Origin: an uncultured Muribaculaceae bacterium
GTDB lineage: Bacteria; Bacteroidota; Bacteroidia; Bacteroidales; Muribaculaceae
Assembly: GCA_947177435.1 (NCBI GenBank)
Contig: CAMWUM010000017.1
Span: forward strand, 1-14,706
DNA length: 14,706 nt
Reading direction: 5' to 3'
The notes under the pieces were generated by a model. That model saw nothing but the letters and a program-made list of their open reading frames with translations, did no database searches and was not told the origin of the DNA. The position numbers and the translations under genes were made by a program. Positions 614 to 14,542 of this stretch are shown in pieces. Position 1 is the first letter of the stretch. Each line of letters opens with the position of its first letter.

Positions 614-1869
614 TTGAGTACGAGGGTTGTGGCATCGCCGTAAGGCTCGTAGCCGTTGATGATTACTCGCTCGCCCGGCTCAAGGCCTTCGAGCACTTCG
701 TAGTATTGCGGATTCTGGCGTCCGAGTCGCACGTTGCGGCGGTATGCCTTGCGATCGTTTTTGTCGAGCACATATACGTAATTGCCCGACGAAGAGGAAT
801 AGAACGCGCCTCGGGGGATGAGGACTGCGGGCGAGGGCTGGCCGAGCTGGAGGTTGAGGTAGTAGGTCTGGCCCATGCGGATGTTGTCGGGACGGTCGCC
901 GTCAAACACGAAGTCTACACGGAACTTTCCCTCGCGCACCTCGGGGTAAACCTTGTGTACGACCATGTTGAACTTCTGGCCGTTTCGATCGAGGATTGCG
1001 GGCAGGCCCACGTGTACGCGGTCGATGCTGCGCTCGTCGATGCGTGCCTCTACCTTGTAGTCGGAGAGCACGTTGATCTGGCCGATCTTCTGGCCGGCGG
1101 TTATGTTTTGGCCGAGCTCAGCTTCGAGCAGTCCGAGTTCGCCGTCGATGGGCGAAGTGACGTCGAGGTGGTCTTTGCGCTGGCGGATGAGCACGACGTT
1201 GAGCTGCATGTTCTCGAGGTTTTCCTCCATCTGGCCCACCTGGCTCAGGCGATAGATGCTGTCTTGAGCCAGCCTTTGGGTGATGAGGCCCTGGCGGCGG
1301 AGCGCCAGTTCGTAATCCTCCTTGGCCTGCAGGTAATCCTCCTTGGCGATGAGGCGCTCTTTGTACAGGCGCTCCTTCTGCTCGTAGGCGCGGTGCTTTC
1401 GGGTGACTTCGAGGTCGATCTGCGCCTGTTCGTTGCGGTTGTTGAGTCGGTCTTGCTCCATGGATATCTGCGTGTTGCGCAGGATATTCTGCTTTTCGGC
1501 CAGTTCGGCTTCGGCATTAAGGATCTGCAGGTCGAGAGCGTTGTTGCGCAGGCGGATGATGACGTCGCCTTTCTTGACTGTGGCGCCCTCTTCGACCACG
1601 CGCTCGACCACTATGCCGCCCTCCTCGGGGCTGATCTGCACCTGGCTGATGGGCAGCACGTGGCCGTCGATGCGCACGAAGTCGTCAAACTGCCCCTCAG
1701 TCACCTCGCCGATGGTGAGGCCAAGGCGGTCGGCCTTGTAGGTTGATGACATGTCGGATGAGAAAATCCACACAGCGGCGGTGACAGCCAGCGCGCCGAT
1801 GCCGATGTAGGCCCAATGGCGCGGCTTGATGGCTTTCAGGCCTTTCTTTTTTTCTATTTTAACGTCCAT
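610..1869 (-). CDS. Periplasmic adaptor (membrane fusion) protein, HlyD/MacA type
   Basis: This 419-residue protein bridges an inner-membrane transporter and a TolC-type channel. Visible parts in order: a short basic cytoplasmic tail, one membrane helix at about 19-36, the first half of a lipoyl/hairpin motif at about 72-107 (GGIVVERVVEEGATVKKGD), a long charged coiled coil at about 113-232, the second lipoyl half from about 236 (VTSPIDGEL), then a beta-barrel and a membrane-proximal domain to the end (PGERVIINGYEP). The length is normal for the family. The long coiled coil fits docking on a TolC hairpin. The start at 1869 overlaps the end of the upstream tolC-like gene by 16 bases, and the stop overlaps the permease start. 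ABC rather than RND partnership is inferred from the neighbouring permease. Confidence 0.93.
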   Translation of the reverse strand: MDVKIEKKKGLKAIKPRHWAYIGIGALAVTAAVWIFSSDMSSTYKADRLGLTIGEVTEGQFDDFVRIDGHVLPISQVQISPEEGGIVVERVVEEGATVKKGDVIIRLRNNALDLQILNAEAELAEKQNILRNTQISMEQDRLNNRNEQAQIDLEVTRKHRAYEQKERLYKERLIAKEDYLQAKEDYELALRRQGLITQRLAQDSIYRLSQVGQMEENLENMQLNVVLIRQRKDHLDVTSPIDGELGLLEAELGQNITAGQKIGQINVLSDYKVEARIDERSIDRVHVGLPAILDRNGQKFNMVVHKVYPEVREGKFRVDFVFDGDRPDNIRMGQTYYLNLQLGQPSPAVLIPRGAFYSSSSGNYVYVLDKNDRKAYRRNVRLGRQNPQYYEVLEGLEPGERVIINGYEPYGDATTLVLK

Positions 1870-3203
1870 AACGGTTCGCCTTTATAATAGTTAACTAATT
1901 TGTCTTTAAGCATGTATAGGGTTTGTTTTTGCAGCAGGGCCAGGCGCGAGGCGTAGTAGGTGTTGGCCGAAAGCTGCAGGTCGATGAGCGAGAGCAGGCC
2001 TTCCTCGTATTTCCGCAGGTTGAGGCGGTATGCCGTATAGTCGGCTTCGAGTTTGTCGGTGAGCGCTGCGATTTCGGTGGCGTAGCCGTCGCGGTCGAGC
2101 ACGGCCAGGGCGATGTCGTCGCGGAGCTTTCGCAGGCTTTCGTCGCGTTGGCTCTTGGCTATCTCCCAGTTGGCCTTTGCTCGGCGTGCTGAAGATGAGC
2201 GCCAGAGGTTGTCGAAGAGCGGGAGGCTGAAGTTGACTTGCACATACTCGCCTCGGTTGTTGCGGAACTGCTCGCCGAAGGGCGGGAACGTGACGCCTGA
2301 GCCCAGCACGCGGTAAAATGATGTGGAGATGCCGCCGCTGAGTGATATTGTGGGCCACAAGGTGCCCTGGGCCGAGCGGTAGCGGTAACGGGCCGACTCG
2401 ACCAACTTTTCGGCCTCTATAGCCAGTGGATTGTTGGCCATGGCATAGGCGCAGATGTCGCCGACGCTGACGGGGAGGTCGTAAGTGAGGTATTCCGTTT
2501 CGAGCCATGCGGTGTCTACGGCCAGGGTCATGCTGTCGGGCAGGTTGAGCGCGCTGCGGAGCGTGAGCATCGACTGCTGGTATACGTTGCGCTGGTGGGT
2601 GAGGTTGTAAAGGTCGTCGCTGTGGCTGGCGCGGGCCTGGGCCACGTCGGGAGCGCCCATCATGCCGAGTTCTTCCTGGCGAAGGGTGAGGGAGAGCAGC
2701 GCCTCGCTCTGCGCGGCCTTGTCCTCGGCGATGGCAATGGCACCGAGATAATAGGCGGCGTCGGCGTAGGCCATCATGGCCGAGATGGCGCAGTCGTCTC
2801 GACGCATGTCGATGGCGTTGCGCGAGCGTTCACGTTCGGCACGGGCCAGGCGCCAATTGTTGTAGGTCTGTCCACCGTCGAATAGGGTGAGGGAGGCATA
2901 GAGGCCATAGCCGTTGTTGAACGTGGTTACATTATTATAGGTGTTCGTTTCCGGGTCGATATTGCGGCCCCAACTGAACTGCGCGGCAGTCTGCGCCGAC
3001 ACTGACGGCAGGAAGTTGCCCACGGCGTTGGCGTATTCCGCCTTGGCGCCAACCAGATCCCAGCGTGCTTGCGCCACGGCGTTGCCATGCTCGGCAGCGT
3101 AGGCCATGCACTCGTCGAGCGACCAGACGCGTCCCTGGGCACATGCTCCGCCCACGCAGGCCGCCGCGGCTAAGGTTGATAATAATAATTTTATTTTTTC
3201 CAT
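1854..3203 (-). CDS. TolC family outer membrane efflux protein
   Basis: The 449-residue product is an outer membrane channel component that should form a trimeric beta-barrel with a periplasmic helical tunnel. The start at 3203 is preferred because it begins a clear signal peptide, MEKIKLLLSTLAAAACVGGA, with likely cleavage after Ala22 (ACA-Q). A longer reading to 3317 would translate through the promoter region. The mature protein opens with WSLDECMAYAAEHG, typical of OEP proteins. It has the two internally repeated halves: the motif TLFDGGQTYNNWRLARAE in the first is echoed by SLPLFDNLWRSSSARRAK in the second, each followed by a long helix. It is first in the efflux operon and overlaps the adaptor gene by 16 bases. 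Possible sigma-54 control is described under the regulatory entries. Confidence 0.93.
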   Translation of the reverse strand: MEKIKLLLSTLAAAACVGGACAQGRVWSLDECMAYAAEHGNAVAQARWDLVGAKAEYANAVGNFLPSVSAQTAAQFSWGRNIDPETNTYNNVTTFNNGYGLYASLTLFDGGQTYNNWRLARAERERSRNAIDMRRDDCAISAMMAYADAAYYLGAIAIAEDKAAQSEALLSLTLRQEELGMMGAPDVAQARASHSDDLYNLTHQRNVYQQSMLTLRSALNLPDSMTLAVDTAWLETEYLTYDLPVSVGDICAYAMANNPLAIEAEKLVESARYRYRSAQGTLWPTISLSGGISTSFYRVLGSGVTFPPFGEQFRNNRGEYVQVNFSLPLFDNLWRSSSARRAKANWEIAKSQRDESLRKLRDDIALAVLDRDGYATEIAALTDKLEADYTAYRLNLRKYEEGLLSLIDLQLSANTYYASRLALLQKQTLYMLKDKLVNYYKGEPLWTLK

Positions 3204-3230
3204 AAGAAATGTGTTTGCACCCCTATAACA

Positions 3231-3246
3231 TACATACCCCGTGCCA
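3231..3246 (-). promoter_or_regulatory. Candidate sigma-54 promoter of the efflux operon
   Basis: The minus strand reads TGGCACGGGGTATGTA from 3246 to 3231. The RpoN consensus is TGGCACGG-N3-TTGCW. The -24 half matches at all eight positions. The -12 half (ATGTA) matches three of five, with GT in place of the usual GC. The spacing is exact. The start site would be about 3220, giving a 17-base leader to the ATG at 3203. Efflux operons of this composition in Bacteroidales are often next to a sigma-54-dependent response regulator (recalled, not checked), which supports the reading. The weak -12 half is the main doubt. Confidence 0.45.
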
Positions 3247-3267
3247 AACTCACAACCACCTAATATC

Positions 3268-3296
3268 CAAATATATAATAATTGATTGCCTGTCAA
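3268..3296 (-). promoter_or_regulatory. Alternative housekeeping-type promoter for the efflux operon
   Basis: On the minus strand TATATTTG (3275-3268) is an exact match to the Bacteroidetes -7 element TAnnTTTG. TTGACA (3296-3291) lies upstream, with 18 bases between its TTG and the -7 box, close to the usual 19-21. It would start transcription near 3261 and give a leader of nearly 60 bases. It competes with the sigma-54 candidate; both could be used. Confidence 0.4.
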
Positions 3297-3301
3297 GAGT
3301 G

Positions 3302-3341
3302 TCAAAAAATCATACACCCGCCATCAAAAAATCATACACCC
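3302..3341. repeat. Tandem 18-bp direct repeat, 22-bp period (likely regulator binding sites)
   Basis: TCAAAAAATCATACACCC occurs at 3302-3319 and again, identical, at 3324-3341. The 22-bp period is about two helical turns, so both copies face the same side of the DNA. They lie about 82-121 bases upstream of the start predicted from the sigma-54-like element, where enhancer-binding activators normally sit. The first copy is also framed by GTGT and ACAC. Function as an operator is inferred. Confidence 0.6.
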
Positions 3342-3636: not shown

Positions 3637-6600
3637 ATGAGTGATCTGTTGAAACGATATATAGCCTGCTTTGCTGTCTGCCGTGGCCTTTTGGCCGTGG
3701 TGTGCTTTGTTTTATTCTTTTTGGGGGCACAGGCGCAGTACTATACGCCGCAGGTGACGCCTCCGCCTCCCGTTGGGGGGACGCCGACGCCGGGCGATTC
3801 GATTGATTTGCCGTTTCCTATCAATCCCTCTGTCCCTCAGAGTTATGAGCAACTCGTTGAGGATGAGTTGGGCTTTGACCTCAAAACTCCATCAAACATT
3901 ACCACCGAGGCTGAATACGACCCGACTACGGGCTATTATATAGTTCGCACGCGCGTAGGCGGCATGGACGTGGTCACGCCCTTTATGCTCACTCCCGCGC
4001 AGTACAACAACTGGCAGCTGCGCCAGTCTATGCAGGACTATTACCGTGAGCGCAACCTGGCATTGGTCAAAAACGAGACTGAGAAAGAGCCGTTTAACGT
4101 GCTGGATATGAATTTCGCTCTTGGGCCGCTGGAGAAAATCTTCGGCCCCGGAGGCGTGCAGCTCAAGACGCAGGGCTCGGTGCAGATTTCGATGGGCGTG
4201 AAGAGCAACAAGACTGATAATCCGGCGCTTTCGCTCAACGCGCGCCGCAAGACATTCTTCGATTTCGACCAGAAGATACAGGCCACTATCAATGCAAGCG
4301 TCGGCAACCGCATGCGCTTCAACATGACCTACAACACCGACGCAACATTCGGTTTCGACTCCAAAAACCTCAAACTCGCCTACGAGGGCGAAGAGGATGA
4401 CATTGTAAAGGAAATCGAGGCCGGTAACGTGTCGATGACTACCGGTTCGTCGCTCATCCGCGGCGGTACGGCCCTGTTCGGCATCAAGGCCAAGCTGCAA
4501 TTTGGACGCCTCACGGCTACAGCCCTGGTGTCGCAGCAAAACTCGCAGTCGCAGACCGTCAACACCAAGGGCGGCGTGCAGACCACCAAGTACTCGATCA
4601 AGGCCGACGAATACGATGCCAATCGCCACTTCTTCCTCGCGCAATACTTCCGCGACAATTACGACAAGTTCGCCGCCAAGGTGCCTTTCGTGTCGTCGGG
4701 CATCAACATCACGCGCATCGAGGTGTGGGTGACTAACAAGAGCGGAAAGTACGATGAGGCGCGCAACCTCGTTGGCTTCATTGATTTGGGCGAGAGTCGC
4801 GTACTGGCCAACAATCACTGGACCGTTGATCCCGGCTATCCATTCCCCACCAACGAGAGCAACAACTTGCTCTACACCATCAAGCGTGACTATCCTGACG
4901 CCCGCAACATCAACGACGTGACCCAGGCCCTAGCGCCTCTGCAGGCCTACGGCATACAGGGCGGGTCCGACTTCGAGAAGGTCGAGAGCGCGCGCCTGCT
5001 CAGCAGCAACGAGTACACCCTCAACTCCACCCTCGGTTACATCTCGCTCAAGTCGGCCCTCAACACCGACGAGGTGCTGGCCGTGGCTTTTGAGTACACG
5101 TACAACGGCCAGGTCTACCAGGTGGGCGAGTTTTCAAGCGACATCACTTCCACTTCTCAGGCCCTGTTCGTGAAGATGCTGCGAAGCACCACCGTGTCGA
5201 CCGCACTGCCTACATGGGACCTGATGATGAAGAACGTCTACAACCTCGGCGGCTATCAGATACAGAAAAACAATTTCCGACTCAACATCAAGTATCTGAG
5301 TGACACCACCGGCGTTGAAATCAACTACCTGCCCGTGCCCGGCCTCAATGACAAGTCGCTGCTGCAAGTGATGAACCTCGACCGCCTCGACTCAAACCAA
5401 GAGTCGAACGTCGACGGATTTTTCGACTTTGTGGAGGGATATACCATCATACCCTCGTCGGGTAAGGTAATTTTCCCCGTGGTCGAGCCCTTCGGTGAGC
5501 ACCTGGCCCGCATGATTGACAACCCTACAATCGCCAAGGATTACGTCTACCAGGAACTTTACGACTCTACGCTGATAGTGGCCCGCCAGTTTGCTGACAA
5601 GAACAAGTTCGTCATCACGGGCGAATATCAGGCCTCGGCCGGCAGCCAGATTAGGCTTAACGCGATGAACGTGCCGCGAGGATCGGTGGTGGTCATGGCC
5701 GGCGGACGCCAACTCGTGGAGAACTCCGACTACACCGTGGACTATACCATGGGCATCGTCACCATTACCAACCAGTCGATTATCGACTCGGGCCAGAACG
5801 TGAGCGTGACCCTCGAAAACCAGTCGCTATTCTCAATGCAGCGCAAGTCGCTACTCGGCCTCGACCTGCAATACGAGATCAACAAGGACTTCATAATCGG
5901 CGGCACGTTCATGCATTTCTCCGAGAAGGCGCTGACCGAAAAAGTTAATATCGGCGACGAGATTGTCAACAACTCGATGCTTGGCTTTAACCTGCGCTAC
6001 AACAAAGAGTTTATGTGGCTGACGAATGCCCTCAACTGGATACCCACCGTCAACGCCACCGCCCCGAGCCGCATCAACGTCACCGGCGAGTTCGCGCAGC
6101 TCATCCCCCACAGCCAAAAGCCCGGGTCGAACCGCGGCTCGTCATACCTCGACGATTTCGAATATACACAGATCGGCATTGACCTGCGTTCGCCCTATGC
6201 ATGGCAACTCGCTCCGACTCCTTACGACCCCAGTCCCAACGCCCTCTTCCCTGAGGCCGCGCTGAGCAACAATGTGGACTACGGCAAGAATCGAGCGTTG
6301 CTCAACTGGTATTACATAGATCGCATGTTTACCCAGCGCAATTCGTCGCTGGCTCCCGGCTACATCAAGAGCGACCTCGACATGCTCTCGCAGCCATACG
6401 TCCGTGAGATCAAGACACACGAGATTTTCCCCGGACGCCAACTCACCTATGGCGAGTCGTCGACCATCCAGACTCTCAACCTCACATTCTATCCCTCGGA
6501 GCGCGGACCGTACAACCTCGACGCCGACAACATCGCCTCCGACGGCTCGCTGCTCTATCCCGAGACGCGCTGGGGCGGCCTTCTGCGCAGGATGGAAAAC

Positions 6601-9309
6601 ACACACTTTGAGCAGAACAATGTCGAATACCTCGAGTTCTGGCTTATGAGCCCGTTCCTCGATCCCGAGAATCCCAACACCGAGGGTGGTGACCTCTACT
6701 TCAACTTTGGTGAGGTGTCGGAGGATATCCTCAAGGACGGCCTCAAAAGTTACGAGAACGGTATTCCTTACGACGGTAACGATCAATACCTCACCGAGAC
6801 CGTATGGGGCCGCGTGTCTACACAGAACTCACTCACTTATTCGTTTGACAATTCCTCCGGTTCGCGTCTGGCTCAGGACGTCGGCCTTGATGGACTGCCT
6901 AACGCTGACGAGTTCAATTTCCCCTCCTACCAGAATTATCTCGACAAGCTGCGCCAGCGTCTCGACCCGACCACGGTAGCACAGATGATGGACGACCAGT
7001 TCTCGCCTTTCAACGACCCCGCCGGTGACAATTACCACTTCTATCGCGGTTACGATTACGACGACGAGCGCCTGGGCGTGCTCGAGCGTTACAAGAGATA
7101 CAACGGCGTCGAGGGCAACTCCCTCTCGCCCGAGGACTCGCCTGAGCCATTGTACCAAAGCTCCCGAAACACCCCCGATGTTGAGGATATCAACCAGGAC
7201 AACACGCTCAACGAGTACGAGCGCTATTTCGAATACCACGTGTCAATCCGCCCTGAGGACTTCGTGGTGGGAAAGAACTACATCACCGACAAGCAGACTT
7301 CGTGGGTGACACTGCGCAACGGCAAGCAGACCCAGGTGGAGTGGTACCAGTTCAAGATACCCTTGAGCGACTGGGAGAAGAAGGTGGGTAACATCAACGA
7401 CTTCTCCACCATCCGCTTCGCCCGCATCTACATGACCGGTTTTAAGAACACAACCTACCTGCGCTTCGCTACGCTTGAACTCGTGCGCGGCGAGTGGCGC
7501 GCTTACGACTTCAACCTCAACAGCCGCGGCGACGCCCCGGCCGAGGGCAAGCTCGACATCTCGGTGGTCAACATCGAGGAGAACTCTGGACGCGAGCCCG
7601 TCAATTACGTGCTGCCTCCGGGCGTGACCCGCATCAGCGATCCCGGCCAGACTCAGATTGTGCAGCTCAACGAGCAGTCGATGTCGCTCAAAGTCACCGG
7701 CCTCAATGCCGGCGATGCCCGCGGCGTGTACAAAAATACGCAGCTCGACCTGCGCAACTACAACCGCATGCAGATGTGGGTGCACGCCGAGCAGCTGATC
7801 GACGACGTAACCAACCTTGGCAACGGACAGTTCTCAGTGTTCATCCGCCTGGGTTCTGACGTCAAGGCCAATTATTACGAGTACGAGGTGCCCCTGGAGC
7901 TCACGCCCCATGGCGACTATTACGACACCCCGCAAGACCGTGCCATCGTATGGCCCGCCAGCAACTACCTCAACTTCGACTTGCAGTCGCTCGTAGCCCT
8001 TAAGGTGGAGCGCAACGCCGCGCGCCGCAACGAGGATGCCGGGGTAGGGTACAATATCGTCTACCGAGGCCGTGACCCGCACAATGAGCGTAACAGCATG
8101 GCCGTGCTCGGCAACCCGTCGCTGAGCGACATCCGCGTAATCCTCGTGGGCGTGCGCAACAATGCCGCCACGGTCAAGAGCGGTATCGTGTGGGTAAATG
8201 AGTTGAAGGTTACAGATTTTAATGAGTCGGGCGGCTGGGCCGCTAAGGCCAACGTCAACCTCAACATGAGCGACATCGTTACCGTCAATGCCGGCGCGCA
8301 CATCGAGACCGCAGGCTTTGGCGGCGTAGACCAGAGCCTTAACAATCGCCGTCTTGACGATTTCGAGCAGTACAACTTCGCAGTCCAAGGCAACGTCGGC
8401 CGTTTCCTCCCCGAATCGGTCAAACTCAACGCGCCCGTTTACTATTCGGTATCGCGTGAGACGACCACGCCCAAGTACAACCCCCTCGACCAGGACGTGG
8501 AACTCAAAGATGCTCTCGATGCCGCAGTCGACAAGCACGAGCGCGACTCGATTATGAACTATGCCGTGGAGCGCACCACGATGCAGAACTTCTCGGTGTC
8601 GGGCCTCAAATTTGACGTCAAGAGCAAGAACCCGATGCCCTGGGATCCGGCCAACTTCACTCTCAACTTCTCATTCTCTAAGCAGGCTAAGAACGATCCC
8701 ACCATAGAGTACGAAAACACCAATGACTACCGTGGTTCACTGCAGTACAGCTATTCGCCCTATATCAAACCGTTTAGGCCCTTCAACTTTATAAAGTCCA
8801 AGGATAAGAACCTCAAATTCTTCAAGGAATGGGAACTCCAGTGGCTGCCCAACACCATCGCGTTCAGCACCAACATGTCGAGGTACTATTACGAGCAGCA
8901 AACCCGCTCGGAGACCGACCAGATGTTCCAACTGCCGGTGGCCGTTAGCAAAAACTTCCTCTGGGACCGCCAGCTCAACCTCAACTGGAACATCACAAAG
9001 TCGCTCTCTCTATCGTTCAACAGCAACACCTCGGCCCGCATCGAGGAGACCGTCGGCGCCGTCAACAAGAAACTGTTCCCTGACAAATATAAGGAATGGC
9101 AAGACACTGTGTGGTCATCGATCCTCTCGATGGGTACGCCCTGGGCATACAACCAGACATTTACCGGCTCCTACAAGGCGCCGTTCAACCGCATTCCCGT
9201 CCTCGACTTCCTTACCGGCTCCGTTACCTACAACGCCACCTACCGGTGGGACCGCGGCGCTACCATCGACGGGATGAAGATGGGCAACTCTCTTGCCAGC
9301 CAAGGTTAG
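3637..9309 (+). CDS. sprA: SprA (Sov) type 9 secretion translocon, N-terminal 1890 residues, ended by an in-frame TAG
   Basis: SprA is the very large outer membrane barrel through which type 9 secretion substrates leave the cell in Bacteroidetes. The ATG at 3637 is chosen because it starts a signal peptide with a hydrophobic core, ending LGAQAQ near residue 34; an in-frame TTG at 3604 only adds 11 residues. A short proline-rich linker follows. The body is rich in alternating barrel strands and includes family-typical stretches such as NTDATFGFDSKNLKLAYEGE, the segment SSYLDDFEYTQIGIDLRSPY at about residues 836-855, and SprA_N-type modules in both halves. Translation stops at TAG (9307-9309) after GNSLASQG, well short of the roughly 2,400-2,500 residues usual for SprA. 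The missing C-terminal barrel strands are encoded directly downstream in the same frame. Family identity is very secure; function of the truncated product is doubtful. Confidence 0.93.
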   Translation: MSDLLKRYIACFAVCRGLLAVVCFVLFFLGAQAQYYTPQVTPPPPVGGTPTPGDSIDLPFPINPSVPQSYEQLVEDELGFDLKTPSNITTEAEYDPTTGYYIVRTRVGGMDVVTPFMLTPAQYNNWQLRQSMQDYYRERNLALVKNETEKEPFNVLDMNFALGPLEKIFGPGGVQLKTQGSVQISMGVKSNKTDNPALSLNARRKTFFDFDQKIQATINASVGNRMRFNMTYNTDATFGFDSKNLKLAYEGEEDDIVKEIEAGNVSMTTGSSLIRGGTALFGIKAKLQFGRLTATALVSQQNSQSQTVNTKGGVQTTKYSIKADEYDANRHFFLAQYFRDNYDKFAAKVPFVSSGINITRIEVWVTNKSGKYDEARNLVGFIDLGESRVLANNHWTVDPGYPFPTNESNNLLYTIKRDYPDARNINDVTQALAPLQAYGIQGGSDFEKVESARLLSSNEYTLNSTLGYISLKSALNTDEVLAVAFEYTYNGQVYQVGEFSSDITSTSQALFVKMLRSTTVSTALPTWDLMMKNVYNLGGYQIQKNNFRLNIKYLSDTTGVEINYLPVPGLNDKSLLQVMNLDRLDSNQESNVDGFFDFVEGYTIIPSSGKVIFPVVEPFGEHLARMIDNPTIAKDYVYQELYDSTLIVARQFADKNKFVITGEYQASAGSQIRLNAMNVPRGSVVVMAGGRQLVENSDYTVDYTMGIVTITNQSIIDSGQNVSVTLENQSLFSMQRKSLLGLDLQYEINKDFIIGGTFMHFSEKALTEKVNIGDEIVNNSMLGFNLRYNKEFMWLTNALNWIPTVNATAPSRINVTGEFAQLIPHSQKPGSNRGSSYLDDFEYTQIGIDLRSPYAWQLAPTPYDPSPNALFPEAALSNNVDYGKNRALLNWYYIDRMFTQRNSSLAPGYIKSDLDMLSQPYVREIKTHEIFPGRQLTYGESSTIQTLNLTFYPSERGPYNLDADNIASDGSLLYPETRWGGLLRRMENTHFEQNNVEYLEFWLMSPFLDPENPNTEGGDLYFNFGEVSEDILKDGLKSYENGIPYDGNDQYLTETVWGRVSTQNSLTYSFDNSSGSRLAQDVGLDGLPNADEFNFPSYQNYLDKLRQRLDPTTVAQMMDDQFSPFNDPAGDNYHFYRGYDYDDERLGVLERYKRYNGVEGNSLSPEDSPEPLYQSSRNTPDVEDINQDNTLNEYERYFEYHVSIRPEDFVVGKNYITDKQTSWVTLRNGKQTQVEWYQFKIPLSDWEKKVGNINDFSTIRFARIYMTGFKNTTYLRFATLELVRGEWRAYDFNLNSRGDAPAEGKLDISVVNIEENSGREPVNYVLPPGVTRISDPGQTQIVQLNEQSMSLKVTGLNAGDARGVYKNTQLDLRNYNRMQMWVHAEQLIDDVTNLGNGQFSVFIRLGSDVKANYYEYEVPLELTPHGDYYDTPQDRAIVWPASNYLNFDLQSLVALKVERNAARRNEDAGVGYNIVYRGRDPHNERNSMAVLGNPSLSDIRVILVGVRNNAATVKSGIVWVNELKVTDFNESGGWAAKANVNLNMSDIVTVNAGAHIETAGFGGVDQSLNNRRLDDFEQYNFAVQGNVGRFLPESVKLNAPVYYSVSRETTTPKYNPLDQDVELKDALDAAVDKHERDSIMNYAVERTTMQNFSVSGLKFDVKSKNPMPWDPANFTLNFSFSKQAKNDPTIEYENTNDYRGSLQYSYSPYIKPFRPFNFIKSKDKNLKFFKEWELQWLPNTIAFSTNMSRYYYEQQTRSETDQMFQLPVAVSKNFLWDRQLNLNWNITKSLSLSFNSNTSARIEETVGAVNKKLFPDKYKEWQDTVWSSILSMGTPWAYNQTFTGSYKAPFNRIPVLDFLTGSVTYNATYRWDRGATIDGMKMGNSLASQG
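9307..9309 (+). other. sprA: In-frame amber (TAG) codon inside sprA
   Basis: The codon lies between SLASQG and WNFDGRLNFESF with no shift of frame on either side. One base change from CAG, AAG, GAG, TCG, TTG, TGG, TAC or TAT would produce it. TAG also ends the tolC-like, nitroreductase and maf genes here, so it is read as stop in this genome. Confidence 0.95.
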
Positions 9310-11073
9310 TGGAATTTCGACGGCCGCCTCAATTTTGAGTCGTTCTACAAGAAGATTCCTTACTTGGCTGCCGTTGACAAGCGTTTCGCCAATAAGAAGA
9401 AGGCCGCACCGCAGAAGCCAAAGGTGTATGACCGCACTGTCAAGCTTAAGACTGACACCACTACGCTGATTAAGCACAACCTGAAAACGAAGAAGGTCAA
9501 AGTGACATCCACCACCGTAGCCGGCGACCGTTTCCCTGTCAAGTGGCATGTGGTCGACGTCAACTCGATCGAGGTTGAGACCCGAGGCGATCAGGATGTG
9601 AAGTTTAAGATTGAAGAGGTGCTCAAGGACGAGAAGAGCCTGTGGCAAGACATTGGCGACTACTCTGTGCGCCTCGTCATGTCGCCCCGCAATGTAGCCT
9701 TCCGTTACCGCCGTACCAGCCAGATGTCGCTGCCACTTTACAGCCCCGAGATTGGCAACGTCTTCGGCCAGTCGCTCAGCTATGGCCCCATGGCTCCCGG
9801 CCTCGACTTCGCTTTTGGCTTTGCCGGCGACGACTACATTGACCGCGCTATCGACCGCGGTTGGCTCATCACCGATGACGGCCAGACCTCGCCCGCTCTG
9901 ATGTCGCGCACCAACGAAATGAACCTCGAAGTCAACCTTGAACCGTTCAAGGGCTTTAAGGTGCAGCTGACTTTCAACCGTACAGAGAACAGTTCAAAGT
10001 CGGTGCAGTTCATGTACTCCGGCATGCCCACCACGCTCTCCGGCTCGTACACCAAGACGCATTGCGCCCTGCTCACCGCCCTGCGCAGTTCAAGCGCCAA
10101 GGATGGCTACAAGTCGGCTGCCTTTGACCAGATGCTGGCCAACATCCCCATCATCCGCGACCGCGTGGAGAGTCAGTACATGGGTCGGGATTATCCCACC
10201 ACAGGATTTATGGAAGGCAACCTCCATGCAGGCCGTCCGTTCAATCCGGAGGTTGGTGCCGTGAGCCGCACGTCGAGCGATGTGCTCATCCCCGCCTTCC
10301 TAGCCGCCTACACAGGCATGGACGCGAGCAGCGTTTACCTCAATCCGTTCCCGTCGTTCAGCGCCGTGCTCCCCAACTGGCGCATTACCTTCGACGGCCT
10401 TATCAACATGGGCAACATGCGTTCGATATTCAAGACATTCACTCTCAGCCACGCCTACCAGTGCACCTATGCCGTAGGTTCCTATTCGTCGTTCCTCAAC
10501 TGGGTTGGCGTTGACGGCAACCTTGGTTTCACTCTCGATGCCCTCACCGGCGAGCCCATCCCCTCGTCGCCGTTCAATATCTCCTCCGTCGCTATTACCG
10601 AGAAGTTTGCGCCGCTCATTGGCCTCAACGCCACGATGAACAATGGCGTGCAGTTCAACGCCGAGTACCGCGACCAGCGCACGCTCACGCTCAACTCCAG
10701 CGCCGGCCAGGTGGTGGAGGCATCTCAGCGAGCCCTCACGTTCGGCGCCGGTTACAAGATTGTAGGCTTCAACACTATCCTCAAGATGAAAGGCTCGGGC
10801 CAGGGCGTAAGCAACGACCTTACCCTCAACCTTGACTTCTCGCTGCAGAACAACCAGGCCCTCATCCGCCGCATCGAAGAGAACTATACACAGCCCACCT
10901 CGGGCGCCCGCACCCTGGCCATCAACTTCACCGCCAACTACGTGCTCTCAAAGCGACTCACCATCGCCGGTTACTTCTCGCATCAGGTAAATACCCCCAT
11001 CGTCACCACCAGTTCATATCCCACCAGCAACTCCGCTTTTGGCCTCCCCTTTAACCTCTCGCTGTCCAGATAA
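9310..11073 (+). pseudogene. sprA: C-terminal part of sprA, separated by the in-frame TAG
   Basis: This stretch of 587 codons continues the sprA frame with no further stop and ends with TAA at 11071. It begins WNFDGRLNFESFYKKIPYLA, has a lysine-rich insert (KRFANKKKAAPQKPK), and then many amphipathic strands. Its last residues, FGLPFNLSLSR, resemble the final strand of an outer membrane barrel ending in a basic residue, as in SprA. Codon choice (many C-ending codons) is the same as in the upstream part, so no decay is visible. Added to the upstream part it restores a full-length SprA of 2,478 codons including the TAG. Translation on its own could only start at weak codons such as TTG at 9364, would lack a signal peptide, and is unlikely to give a useful protein. 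It is called a pseudogene segment unless the TAG is an error or is read through. Confidence 0.85.
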
Positions 11074-11168: not shown

Positions 11169-12110
11169 GTGAATACAGTGATAAGGCATATTGAATATTT
11201 AATTTCACGCACCGACTGCGTAATCATTCCAGGCATCGGAGCCTTGCTGGCGCACAGACAGAGCGCTCAGTTTGACTTTGATAACCAGAGGGTTGTGCCG
11301 CCGTCGAGGGTGTTCTCGTTCAATGGCCAACTCACTGAGACCGACGGCGCGCTCGCCTATTCTGTGGCCCGTGCCGAGAGCATATCGCTTGAAGCCGCCT
11401 CCGATAAGGTGAAGGCTGAGACCGAGGCTATGAAGCGCCAACTGATGCTCGATGGCCAACTTTCGCTTGGTCGCGTGGGCACGCTCACAGCCGATGCAGA
11501 AAGCGGATCCATCACATTCAACTCTTTTGCCGCCGATGCCCTTAGCATTGCTACGGCATGGCTCCCCACCGTAGAGGTTAAGCCTGCCGAGCATGAGGAA
11601 ATCGTTGTCGAGACGCCTGTCCGCCCCACGCGCCATTGGGCTCGATTCGCGAAGATAGCAGCGTCTGTTGCCGTTCTTCTCGGCATTTGTTTCGTGGCCT
11701 CAACGCCCATCGTTGTCAACGATATGCTGCTTGCTTCGCTCGCACCCGAGTTGCAACATGTGGCTGCGGAAGAATTGCTGCCGGTTGACGTAGAGGAACC
11801 CACTCTCACAATCGCATTCCACGACGAAGTAAGTGAATCTGTGGATACAGTAGTGGCTGAGGAGCAGCCTATCGAGGAAGAGACGGTCAAGGAAATCCAG
11901 TCCGTGAGCCAGGGCGACTACCTGGTGATCGTAGGCTCATTCACCACCCAAGAGGAGGCCGAGGCCTGGGTGGCTAAGAAGTACGGTCAGGGCAGCGGAG
12001 TGATTGAAAAGAATGGTCGCTACCGCGCTTATTCGGCATCGTACGCCACTGAAGCAGAAGCCCGCGCCGCTGCAGCCGAGATTGGCAATGCATGGGCCTG
12101 CAAGCGTTGA
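11169..12110 (+). CDS. CCDC81-like HU domain and SPOR domain membrane protein
   Basis: The 313-residue protein has three parts. Residues 1-130 match the prokaryotic CCDC81-type HU-like region, recognised from the opening IRHIEYLISRTDCVIIPGIGALLAH and the later LDGQLSLGRVGTL. One membrane helix lies at about 161-183 (IAASVAVLLGICFVA). An acidic linker follows, and a SPOR domain fills about 249-311 (GDYLVIVGSFTTQEEAEAW). SPOR domains bind denuded septal peptidoglycan, and HU-like folds bind DNA, so a cytoplasmic N-terminus and periplasmic C-terminus are inferred. The precise role of this Bacteroidetes family is not known to me. The start is GTG at 11169, very close to the predicted transcription start; GTG at 11178 is an alternative that loses three residues. 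It is the first gene of the operon; the next begins 17 bases after its stop. Confidence 0.88.
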   Translation: MNTVIRHIEYLISRTDCVIIPGIGALLAHRQSAQFDFDNQRVVPPSRVFSFNGQLTETDGALAYSVARAESISLEAASDKVKAETEAMKRQLMLDGQLSLGRVGTLTADAESGSITFNSFAADALSIATAWLPTVEVKPAEHEEIVVETPVRPTRHWARFAKIAASVAVLLGICFVASTPIVVNDMLLASLAPELQHVAAEELLPVDVEEPTLTIAFHDEVSESVDTVVAEEQPIEEETVKEIQSVSQGDYLVIVGSFTTQEEAEAWVAKKYGQGSGVIEKNGRYRAYSASYATEAEARAAAAEIGNAWACKR

Positions 12111-12127
12111 CAAATACCTTTAACATT

Positions 12128-12673
12128 ATGGATAAAGCATTTAACGGCATGCTGTTCGAACGCCACAGCATACGCAAATACAAGGCCCAGCCCCTGCCGG
12201 CCGAAGATGTGAAGCAAATACTCGAGGCAGGCCTGCTGGCTCCGTCGTCGAAGAGCGCGCGCCCTTGGGAATTTGTATGCGTCGAAGATGCCGACATGCT
12301 GGCCAAACTGGCCGAATGCAAGCCTGCCGGAGCGCGTCCGATAGCCGGCGCAAAGCTCGCCATTATCATCTGCGCTGACCCGGAGAAGAGCGACGTGTAT
12401 GTTGAGGACTGCTCTGTGGCCGCTTCTTACATGCAGTTGCAAGCCACCGCTCTCGGCATCGGGTCGTGTTGGATACAGGTACGTAACCGCTTCTCAGCCG
12501 ATGATAATCCAGCCCAGGACTTGGTGCAGGCACTGCTCGGTATCCCCGCAAGCATGCAGGTGGTGGCTATCCTTACATTCGGATACAGCGACGAGCAGCG
12601 CAATCCCGTCGATCCCGCCAAACTTAAGTGGGAGAAAGTACACATTGGGCAATGGGCCGACGACCAGCAATAG
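12128..12673 (+). CDS. Nitroreductase family protein
   Basis: The 181-residue product belongs to the FMN-dependent nitroreductase fold. Visible signatures are the N-terminal FMN-binding RHSIRKY (residues 12-18), LLAPSSKSARPWEFV (36-50), the central helix DCSVAASYMQLQATALGIGSCWIQ (start about 94) and the late GIPASMQVVAILTFGY (138-153). Members reduce nitro groups, quinones, flavins or other electrophiles with NAD(P)H; the natural substrate here is unknown. The ATG at 12128 is chosen because the family normally starts just before the ERHSIR motif and because an upstream reading from 12092 would overlap the previous gene. The size is at the short end but normal for this subfamily. Its end overlaps the next gene by 22 bases. 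Confidence 0.92.
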   Translation: MDKAFNGMLFERHSIRKYKAQPLPAEDVKQILEAGLLAPSSKSARPWEFVCVEDADMLAKLAECKPAGARPIAGAKLAIIICADPEKSDVYVEDCSVAASYMQLQATALGIGSCWIQVRNRFSADDNPAQDLVQALLGIPASMQVVAILTFGYSDEQRNPVDPAKLKWEKVHIGQWADDQQ

Positions 12674-13419
12674 CCATCGTCGGCTCGGGCAATGTGGCCA
12701 CGCATCTGGCCTTGACTCTTGACAAAGTGGCCGAGGTCAGGCAGGTGTGTTCGCCCTGTGCCGAGCATGCCGAGGCGCTGGCTTCAAGGCTTTCAGATTG
12801 TGAGGCGCTAACCGATGTCTCCAAGATAGATCCGACAGTAGATTTCTGTATCATCTCGGTCAAGGATGATGCAGTGCGTGATGTGTCGGAGGCGTTGCCG
12901 CAGATTGGCGGTATTGTGTGCCATACATCCGGAAGCGCGCCGATGGAGGCTCTATGCAAGCACAGCCGCGCAGGCGTTTTTTATCCACTGCAAACCTTCT
13001 CGAAGGATGCCGAGGTGAATGTTGACGAGGCCCCGTTCTTCATAGAAGCCACTGACGATGATACCCTCAATTCGCTCATGGCGCTCGCCCGGTCGATTAG
13101 CAACAAGGTGGCGGAGGCGGACTCCAGCAAGCGCGCGATATTGCACGTGGCTGCAGTGTTCGCCTGCAACTTCGCCAACCATCTGTGGGCCATATCATCA
13201 GACATACTCGGTGAGCATGGCATTGGCCTCGATGTGATGCGTCCGCTGCTGCAAGCCACCCTCGACAAGGCCATGACAATGCCTCCGGCCGAAGCCCAGA
13301 CTGGGCCTGCCGTGCGCCGTGACGAGGTGGTAATGCAGAAGCACATGAGCATGCTCAGCCCTGAAAATGCCGAGATATACAAGTTACTTTCCCAATCAAT
13401 AATGAGCCATAAGAAATGA
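12652..13419 (+). CDS. Rossmann-like, DUF2520 domain protein
   Basis: The 255-residue protein has an N-terminal dinucleotide-binding fold with GSGNVATHL at 11-19, then CIISVKDDAV (66-75) and HTSGS (91-95). The middle motif VFYPLQTFSK (109-118) and the helical C-terminal part with HVAAVFACNFANHL (165-178) and TGPAVRRD (217-224) are those of the DUF2520 family. The arrangement resembles NADP-dependent reductases of the F420-dependent-reductase/ProC type, but no substrate is established for this family to my knowledge. The ATG at 12652 places the glycine motif at the usual distance from the start; a GTG at 12628 would add 8 residues with no family match. It overlaps the nitroreductase by 22 bases and kdsC by 4 (ATGA), so it is firmly in the operon. 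Confidence 0.9.
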   Translation: MGRRPAIAIVGSGNVATHLALTLDKVAEVRQVCSPCAEHAEALASRLSDCEALTDVSKIDPTVDFCIISVKDDAVRDVSEALPQIGGIVCHTSGSAPMEALCKHSRAGVFYPLQTFSKDAEVNVDEAPFFIEATDDDTLNSLMALARSISNKVAEADSSKRAILHVAAVFACNFANHLWAISSDILGEHGIGLDVMRPLLQATLDKAMTMPPAEAQTGPAVRRDEVVMQKHMSMLSPENAEIYKLLSQSIMSHKK

Positions 13420-13940
13420 GCAGAATAGATTACGACCTTAATTCTATATCAGGAATTGCCTTTGATGTTGACGGTGTGCTGTCGCCATCGACAGTGCCTA
13501 CGGATGCCAATGGCGTGCCCCAGCGAATGTGCAATGTCAAGGATGGCTACGCGCTGCAACTGGCCGTGAAAATGGGCCTGAAGCTTGCCATCATAACGGG
13601 CGCTGACACCGAGTCGATAGCGATGAGGTATAGGTCGCTCGGCATTACTGACATTTACCTGCGCGCATCAGAGAAACTGCCTGTGCTCGATGATTGGATG
13701 CGTCGCCGAGGTTTATCTTCGCACCAAGTGGCTTACGTTGGCGACGATATCCCCGACATTCTGCCCATGCAGAGCGTGGGCCTGCCTGTATGTCCTGCCG
13801 ACGGAGCGCCTGACGCAAAGGCCGTGGCATGCCTTATCACCAAAGCTAACGGCGGCTACGGCGTGGCGCGTGAATTGCTTGAAGAGATACTCAAAGCCAA
13901 AGGCGTGTGGATGACCAATGACGATGCTTATGGCTGGTAA
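13416..13940 (+). CDS. kdsC: 3-deoxy-D-manno-octulosonate 8-phosphate phosphatase (KdsC), HAD family
   Basis: KdsC removes phosphate from Kdo 8-phosphate to give Kdo for the lipopolysaccharide core, in the cytoplasm. The 174-residue length is typical of the minimal HAD subclass that acts as a tetramer. Catalytic motifs are visible: DVDGVL with nucleophile Asp17 and Asp19, Thr61-Gly62 in IITGADTES, Lys87 in SEK, and GDDIPD with Asp110, Asp111 and Asp114 for magnesium. GGYGVARE at 146-153 matches the C-terminal family motif. The usual arginine after ITG(G) is replaced by Ala-Asp, which is slightly unusual. The start overlaps the stop of the previous gene (ATGA). A related HAD phosphatase on another sugar cannot be fully excluded, but the maf neighbour is the common Bacteroidales arrangement. 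Confidence 0.88.
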   Translation: MSRIDYDLNSISGIAFDVDGVLSPSTVPTDANGVPQRMCNVKDGYALQLAVKMGLKLAIITGADTESIAMRYRSLGITDIYLRASEKLPVLDDWMRRRGLSSHQVAYVGDDIPDILPMQSVGLPVCPADGAPDAKAVACLITKANGGYGVARELLEEILKAKGVWMTNDDAYGW

Positions 13941-13963: not shown

Positions 13964-14542
13964 ATGCGTTTGCTTTTAGCCTCCAATTCCCCCCGCCGCC
14001 GTGAACTGTTGCGGCTCATCGCTCCCGACTTTGCCATAGCCTCGATGCACGACATCGACGAGACATACCCGCCGACGCTCCCTACGGCCGAGGTGCCGCT
14101 GTTTCTGTCGCAGTTAAAAGCCAAGGCCTACTCCGCCGACCTCGTGCCCGGCGAGGTGATAATAACGGCGGATACTGTCGTAATCAACGATGGGAAAATC
14201 CTCGGCAAGCCTCACACCGACGAGGAAGCCGTGAATATGCTGATGTCACTCATGGGGCATACCCATACCGTAGTGACCGGCGTCACGCTGACGTCGACGG
14301 AAAAGACTGACAGTTTTGCCGAGAGCACTGAGGTGACTTTCGATACTATCAGCAAGAACGAAATCGAATGGTACGTGCAAAACTACCGCCCCCTCGACAA
14401 GGCAGGCGCATATGGCATACAGGAGTGGATAGGCTGCGTGGCCATATCCTCAATCAAGGGATGCTTCTACAATGTGATGGGGCTCCCGCTGCACACGCTT
14501 TACGAGCATCTGCGCCGGTTCGGGAAATTTACTGAGGAATAG
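13964..14542 (+). CDS. maf: Maf family nucleoside triphosphate pyrophosphatase
   Basis: Maf proteins hydrolyse nucleoside triphosphates (dTTP/UTP and modified forms in the YhdE subfamily) to monophosphates and pyrophosphate, a house-cleaning role historically linked to septum formation. The 192-residue protein has the full signature: ASNSPRRRELL at 6-16, the acidic DIDE at 30-33, LKAKAY at 51-56, ADTVV at 69-73 with Asp70, ILGKP at 79-83, and DKAGAYGIQE at 145-154. The KAGAYGIQ form points to the dTTP/UTP-type subfamily. It begins 23 bases after kdsC, so it is probably the last gene of the operon. Its 3' end overlaps a convergent gene by 14 bases, leaving no room for a terminator between them. 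Confidence 0.94.
   Translation: MRLLLASNSPRRRELLRLIAPDFAIASMHDIDETYPPTLPTAEVPLFLSQLKAKAYSADLVPGEVIITADTVVINDGKILGKPHTDEEAVNMLMSLMGHTHTVVTGVTLTSTEKTDSFAESTEVTFDTISKNEIEWYVQNYRPLDKAGAYGIQEWIGCVAISSIKGCFYNVMGLPLHTLYEHLRRFGKFTEE

Follow-up and report, generated by a model that had tools for sequence, protein, structure and literature searches.

The sprA gene of an uncultured Muribaculaceae bacterium is interrupted by an in-frame TAG, and the question is whether the gene has really been lost, is read through, is naturally made of two pieces, or is broken only in the assembled sequence. The gene lies in a stretch of 14,706 nucleotides, here called the window, which is contig 17 of a fragmented MAG (2,006,015 bases, 311 contigs, 78.6% complete); the TAG was read from the MAG consensus sequence. 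The features are listed in Table 1. The initial annotation described a single in-frame stop splitting sprA and a joined length fitting that of a full SprA, and both statements hold. The two parts lie in one frame, add up to 2,478 codons, TAG counted, and together span the NCBIfam model TIGR04189 (2319 positions), the N-terminal part (N part) covering positions 2-1803 (2,279 bits) and the C-terminal part (C part) positions 1809-2318 (376.5 bits). Solved structures of Flavobacterium johnsoniae SprA are matched as well, by residues 80-1876 of the N part (6h3i_A, residues 38-1857) and by the C part (residues 1939-2400). The product is hence assigned to SprA/Sov, the outer-membrane translocon of the type 9 secretion system (T9SS). 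It differs from other members because the full-length TIGR04189 match is reached only by the two parts together, and the one uninterrupted chain expected for a 36-strand barrel is broken by the TAG. The TAG in sprA is a genuine sequence feature, ordinary in kind.

Table 1. Coordinates of the interrupted sprA gene and of the window genes ending in TAG.
Feature	Position	Strand	Description
sprA N-terminal part	3637..9306	+	1,890 codons from ATG 3637 up to the stop; matches TIGR04189 and 6h3i_A
In-frame TAG	9307..9309	+	sense codon at the same column in the relatives read
sprA C-terminal part	9310..11073	+	587 codons plus TAA at 11071-11073; about 12 barrel strands predicted
Window gene ending in TAG	1854-3317	-	open frame
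Window gene ending in TAG	12092-12673		open frame
Window gene ending in TAG	13964-14542		open frame

Seven other genes of the window were checked. All have open frames and belong to the expected Pfam families (HlyD-like, OEP, HU-CCDC81/SPOR, nitroreductase, DUF2520, HAD and Maf). Between 11169 and 13940 neighbouring genes overlap (11169-12110 with 12092-12673, the latter with 12628-13419, and this in turn with 13416-13940), in a manner resembling tightly packed operons; use of the first listed start codons may exaggerate the extent of the overlaps.

The position of the stop in the protein was deduced from a predicted model of the C part (mean pLDDT 79.6, pTM 0.68), the closest structural match of which is SprA itself (8gl8_A, TM 0.59 by query). 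In the model a short strand directly after the stop is followed by a small insert and by 12 long strands, according to our own count. SprA is made of 36 strands, as stated in the available text of PMC10994853, and the TAG thus probably falls inside strand 24 of the modelled barrel. It had been anticipated that the last quarter of the barrel is lost. This is correct for the residues, and not for the strands, about 12 of 36 in the predicted model. The TAG is also placed directly ahead of a predicted loop, which is taken as a coincidence.

Relatives were searched at increasing distance. In a first search the stretch 5' of the stop is matched in 37 of 41 genomes, counting that of the window, and the 19 relatives compared at the stop column all carry a sense codon (Ala 11, Ser 5, Thr 3). 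Of 18 loci from named genomes, all but L057 extend to the column, and these 17 encode Ala (7), Thr (6), Ser (3) or Asn (1). A third set of 30 loci has Ala 15, Ser 7, Thr 7 and Val 1; the three sets partly overlap. The residue check suggested by the initial annotation therefore returns Ala, Ser or Thr, and once each Asn and Val. At the genus level, a query of 1,168 residues spanning the site is matched in 46 of 49 genomes, and a stop in the aligned part is found exclusively in the genome of the window; the matches of G010 and G048 consist of two pieces each, at contig ends. At the family level sprA is matched in 376 of 397 genomes, and among the best 150 match rows listed the 149 from other genomes are all free of stops. 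Judged from these alignments, the stop is private to the genome of the window among the genomes searched.

It could be imagined that sprA is naturally encoded by two genes, the barrel being built from two chains. We regard this as highly improbable, and reject it, because none of the other 45 genus members matched has a stop in the aligned part, and relatives with two separate genes, which the initial annotation had named as fatal to the idea of a split gene, were not found among them. Further, the C part starts in the middle of a strand, its first possible start codons are a TTG 18 codons in and an ATG 123 codons in, and no export signal is apparent by eye at its beginning.

A second copy of the species (at least 90% identity) was sought in three length bands, and none was present among the matches listed. 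In the first band the best listed match other than the window itself has 83% identity. In the second, the best identity among the matches listed is 70% for those covering the full query and reaches 75% for partial ones; in both these bands only candidates sharing most words were scored, and 120 were listed for each. In the third, identity does not exceed 69% among the matches listed at a query coverage of at least 80%, and reaches 88% on shorter stretches. Since no second copy figures among the matches listed, the TAG has no independent support. The sequence clusters containing the N and C parts of the window have three and two member sequences, respectively. SprA fragments (P0184, P0211, P0258 and others) also occur on long contigs of 394,818, 553,353 and 1,547,551 bases; P0184 starts 15 residues after the TAG site and P0211 starts 347 residues before it. 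Given such fragments, interrupted sprA genes may recur in other assemblies.

Constraint on the C part was assessed on a common tree of 38 taxa, by comparing the terminal branches obtained for the parts before and after the stop (C/N ratio). Two of 39 loci (L002, L016) were left out, as the part after the site failed the filter (90% coverage, no stop or X). The terminal branch of the window measures 0.138 substitutions per site before the stop and 0.263 after it. The resulting C/N ratio of 1.90 differs little from the value for the whole trees (1.86, from 8.45/4.55) and ranks 20th of 38, in a range from 0.87 to 5.08. This closeness indicates that drift of the C part did not last for a large share of the terminal branch. 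The earlier remark that the downstream part shows no decay is borne out, and an old pseudogene is rejected on the same ratio and rank, and for the lack of a second stop in the 587 codons 3' of the TAG. The C/N ratio is compatible with very recent loss, with a segregating variant and with an error; for very recent loss the power of the comparison is low, because the terminal branch of the window is long and the ratios are widely scattered.

The genetic code of the organism was then considered. Codon usage was surveyed in coding frames of at least 200 codons on 61 contigs (752,095 bases). Of 387 coding frames, 364 close inside their contig, with TAA in 216 cases, TGA in 113 and TAG in 35; once the two parts of sprA are excluded, TAG terminates 34 of 362 closed frames. 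The same contigs contain 54 in-frame junctions of the coding/stop/coding type, three of which lack an ATG among the 19 codons that follow the stop. The coding score directly 3' of the stop is 0.30 in sprA, against -0.29 and -0.23 in the other two, and being coding right after the stop sets the sprA junction apart as more than chance. sprA is the sole stop-split gene seen in the 752 kb surveyed, by a procedure that is blind to split genes with an early ATG, to genes broken by frameshifts and to genes with weak codon bias; inside the window it picked up both parts of sprA and missed some other genes. Release factor RF1 is present as an open frame. Genome-wide reassignment of TAG is excluded, since RF1 is retained, TAG ends other frames at the frequency given above, and sprA is the only gene in which an internal TAG was seen in the 61 contigs. 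The initial annotation had doubted such a reassignment, noting three window genes that end in TAG; the three genes are indeed there (Table 1), and the doubt was justified.

Readthrough may also be site-specific, some ribosomes inserting an amino acid at the TAG and producing full-length SprA. The intact frame and normal constraint of the C part agree with it, as does the retention of the rest of the secretion system. A check of the latter, proposed earlier, found GldK, GldL, GldM and GldN as open frames on contig 6 with profile matches over the cut-offs, PorV as an open frame matching positions 61-367 of its 367-position profile, and nine matches to the C-terminal-signal family TIGR04183 at E ≤0.001; the genome thus hosts the GldK/L/M/N, PorV and cargo components by which a T9SS is recognised. 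In-frame stops under purifying selection, with dN/dS <1, are described as widespread in bacteria, and mostly short-lived, in the accessible portion of PMC7918605. The window resembles them in having a single stop with constraint retained 3' of it, and departs from them, as far as that portion goes, in that its stop is not common to several species and is without sign of persistence.

The search for a suppressor tRNA, also suggested beforehand, revealed no CUA anticodon among the 17 tRNAs found, a set clearly incomplete because of the fragmentation and 78.6% completeness of the MAG; the seven tRNAs identified by ARAGORN in 60 fetched contigs are all within the 17. No match to PylS (TIGR02367) was obtained at E 0.001 in the incomplete genome of the window, and a pyrrolysine system is rejected on this ground; 13 of 14 control genomes gave matches, mostly weak cross-matches, above the cut-off in one. 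The RNA fold 3' of the TAG is somewhat stronger than in shuffled sequences (z -1.90 and, in a second run, -1.69). A readthrough hairpin of a special kind is discarded, since the fold at the same place is at z -1.69 or lower in 6 of the 30 relatives, all of which have a sense codon. The base following the stop is T, which would make the context a poorly leaky one. Programmed readthrough is without positive support, and suppression loses ground for want of a CUA anticodon in the incomplete tRNA set, of PylS and of a special downstream structure. With RF1 present and the stop found at this column in none of the relatives read, and so not conserved, readthrough at this site is improbable. Still less credible is a leaky real TAG that would yield mostly a truncated SprA of 24 strands and a little full-length translocon, and would thus let a gut commensal throttle its type 9 secretion in a reversible manner.

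To gauge how often stops interrupt conserved genes in related MAGs, other genes were searched. Of the 49 genus genomes, 46 match GldM, and stops occur in none of 47 rows. rpoB is matched in 133 of 149 genomes, and the only stop among the matches listed is in a piece of 42 residues at a contig end (G170). GldN is matched in all 25 genus genomes searched, and a single in-frame TAA followed by a conserved tail is found in one of them, G021; two weak matches from other families likewise contain a stop. The G021 gldN gene (locus L151, contig 56, 1500-6500) begins at about position 1998 of the locus. Like sprA of the window, it is a T9SS gene of the same genus with one private in-frame stop and conserved coding sequence after it; it differs because the stop is TAA, lies near the C-terminal tail and belongs to another species. 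Private and different stops in two T9SS genes speak against a device specific for amber codons, and fit recurrent loss and MAG errors alike.

These figures bear on whether the TAG is an error of consensus or assembly, or a minority variant that entered the consensus from a mixture of strains, with sprA intact in the living population. The fragmentation of the MAG, the isolation of the lesion in a gene otherwise free of decay, its being the only one of its kind in the 387 surveyed frames, which is compatible with a low error rate, and the similar lone stop in G021 gldN all agree with this. Against it, conserved genes of related MAGs seldom contain stops (none in the 149 other listed sprA rows nor in GldM, a single end piece in rpoB), which makes a high general error rate unlikely. 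The absence of decay is expected equally from an error and from a very recent loss. An artefact or minority variant is a possibility to be taken seriously.

The reading we prefer, with a probability of roughly 0.52, is that the sampled population really carries a nonsense allele of sprA, of very recent origin, with loss of function of the T9SS translocon. We infer that the allele is real rather than an error and that function is lost, and any selection would likewise be inferred; a true loss-of-function allele is somewhat more likely than an error. Translation would stop at the TAG, in the barrel strand 24 suggested by the model; a barrel deprived of about 12 final strands is not expected to close, so that SprA would no longer serve type 9 secretion. 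As sprA is found in 376 of 397 family genomes, its loss should be costly, and can be of temporary advantage, for instance when phages attack. Of the options listed in the initial annotation, a very recent change, an error and a population variant all fit, the change being private and too recent for decay, and suppression is weakened.

Parallels are known. In Cytophaga hutchinsonii, deletion of sprA makes secretion of most T9SS substrates defective, according to the text available of PMC7906972. Phage-exposed isolates of F. columnare acquired stop codons (sprA, gldM) and frameshifts (sprA, gldN), and gld and spr mutations confer resistance to the ancestral phage, as reported in the portion of PMC9233685 at hand. 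Loss of sprA by nonsense mutation is, on that portion, already known from phage-resistant F. columnare, and the premature stop of the window is alike; the F. columnare mutants, as there described, are sequenced clonal isolates of tested phage resistance, whereas the window is a MAG consensus from another family, known from sequence alone. No paper joining SprA, type IX secretion and Muribaculaceae was found, nor one on stop-codon errors in MAGs when all four query terms were used together.

Should the TAG prove to be an error, it would call for caution with single stops in MAGs. Real or not, it leaves ideas on the genetic code unchanged, and the TAG of sprA is not a case of recoding. If it is real, it would mean that a T9SS translocon can be broken in a population of commensals, perhaps because phages exert pressure there as they do in Flavobacterium.
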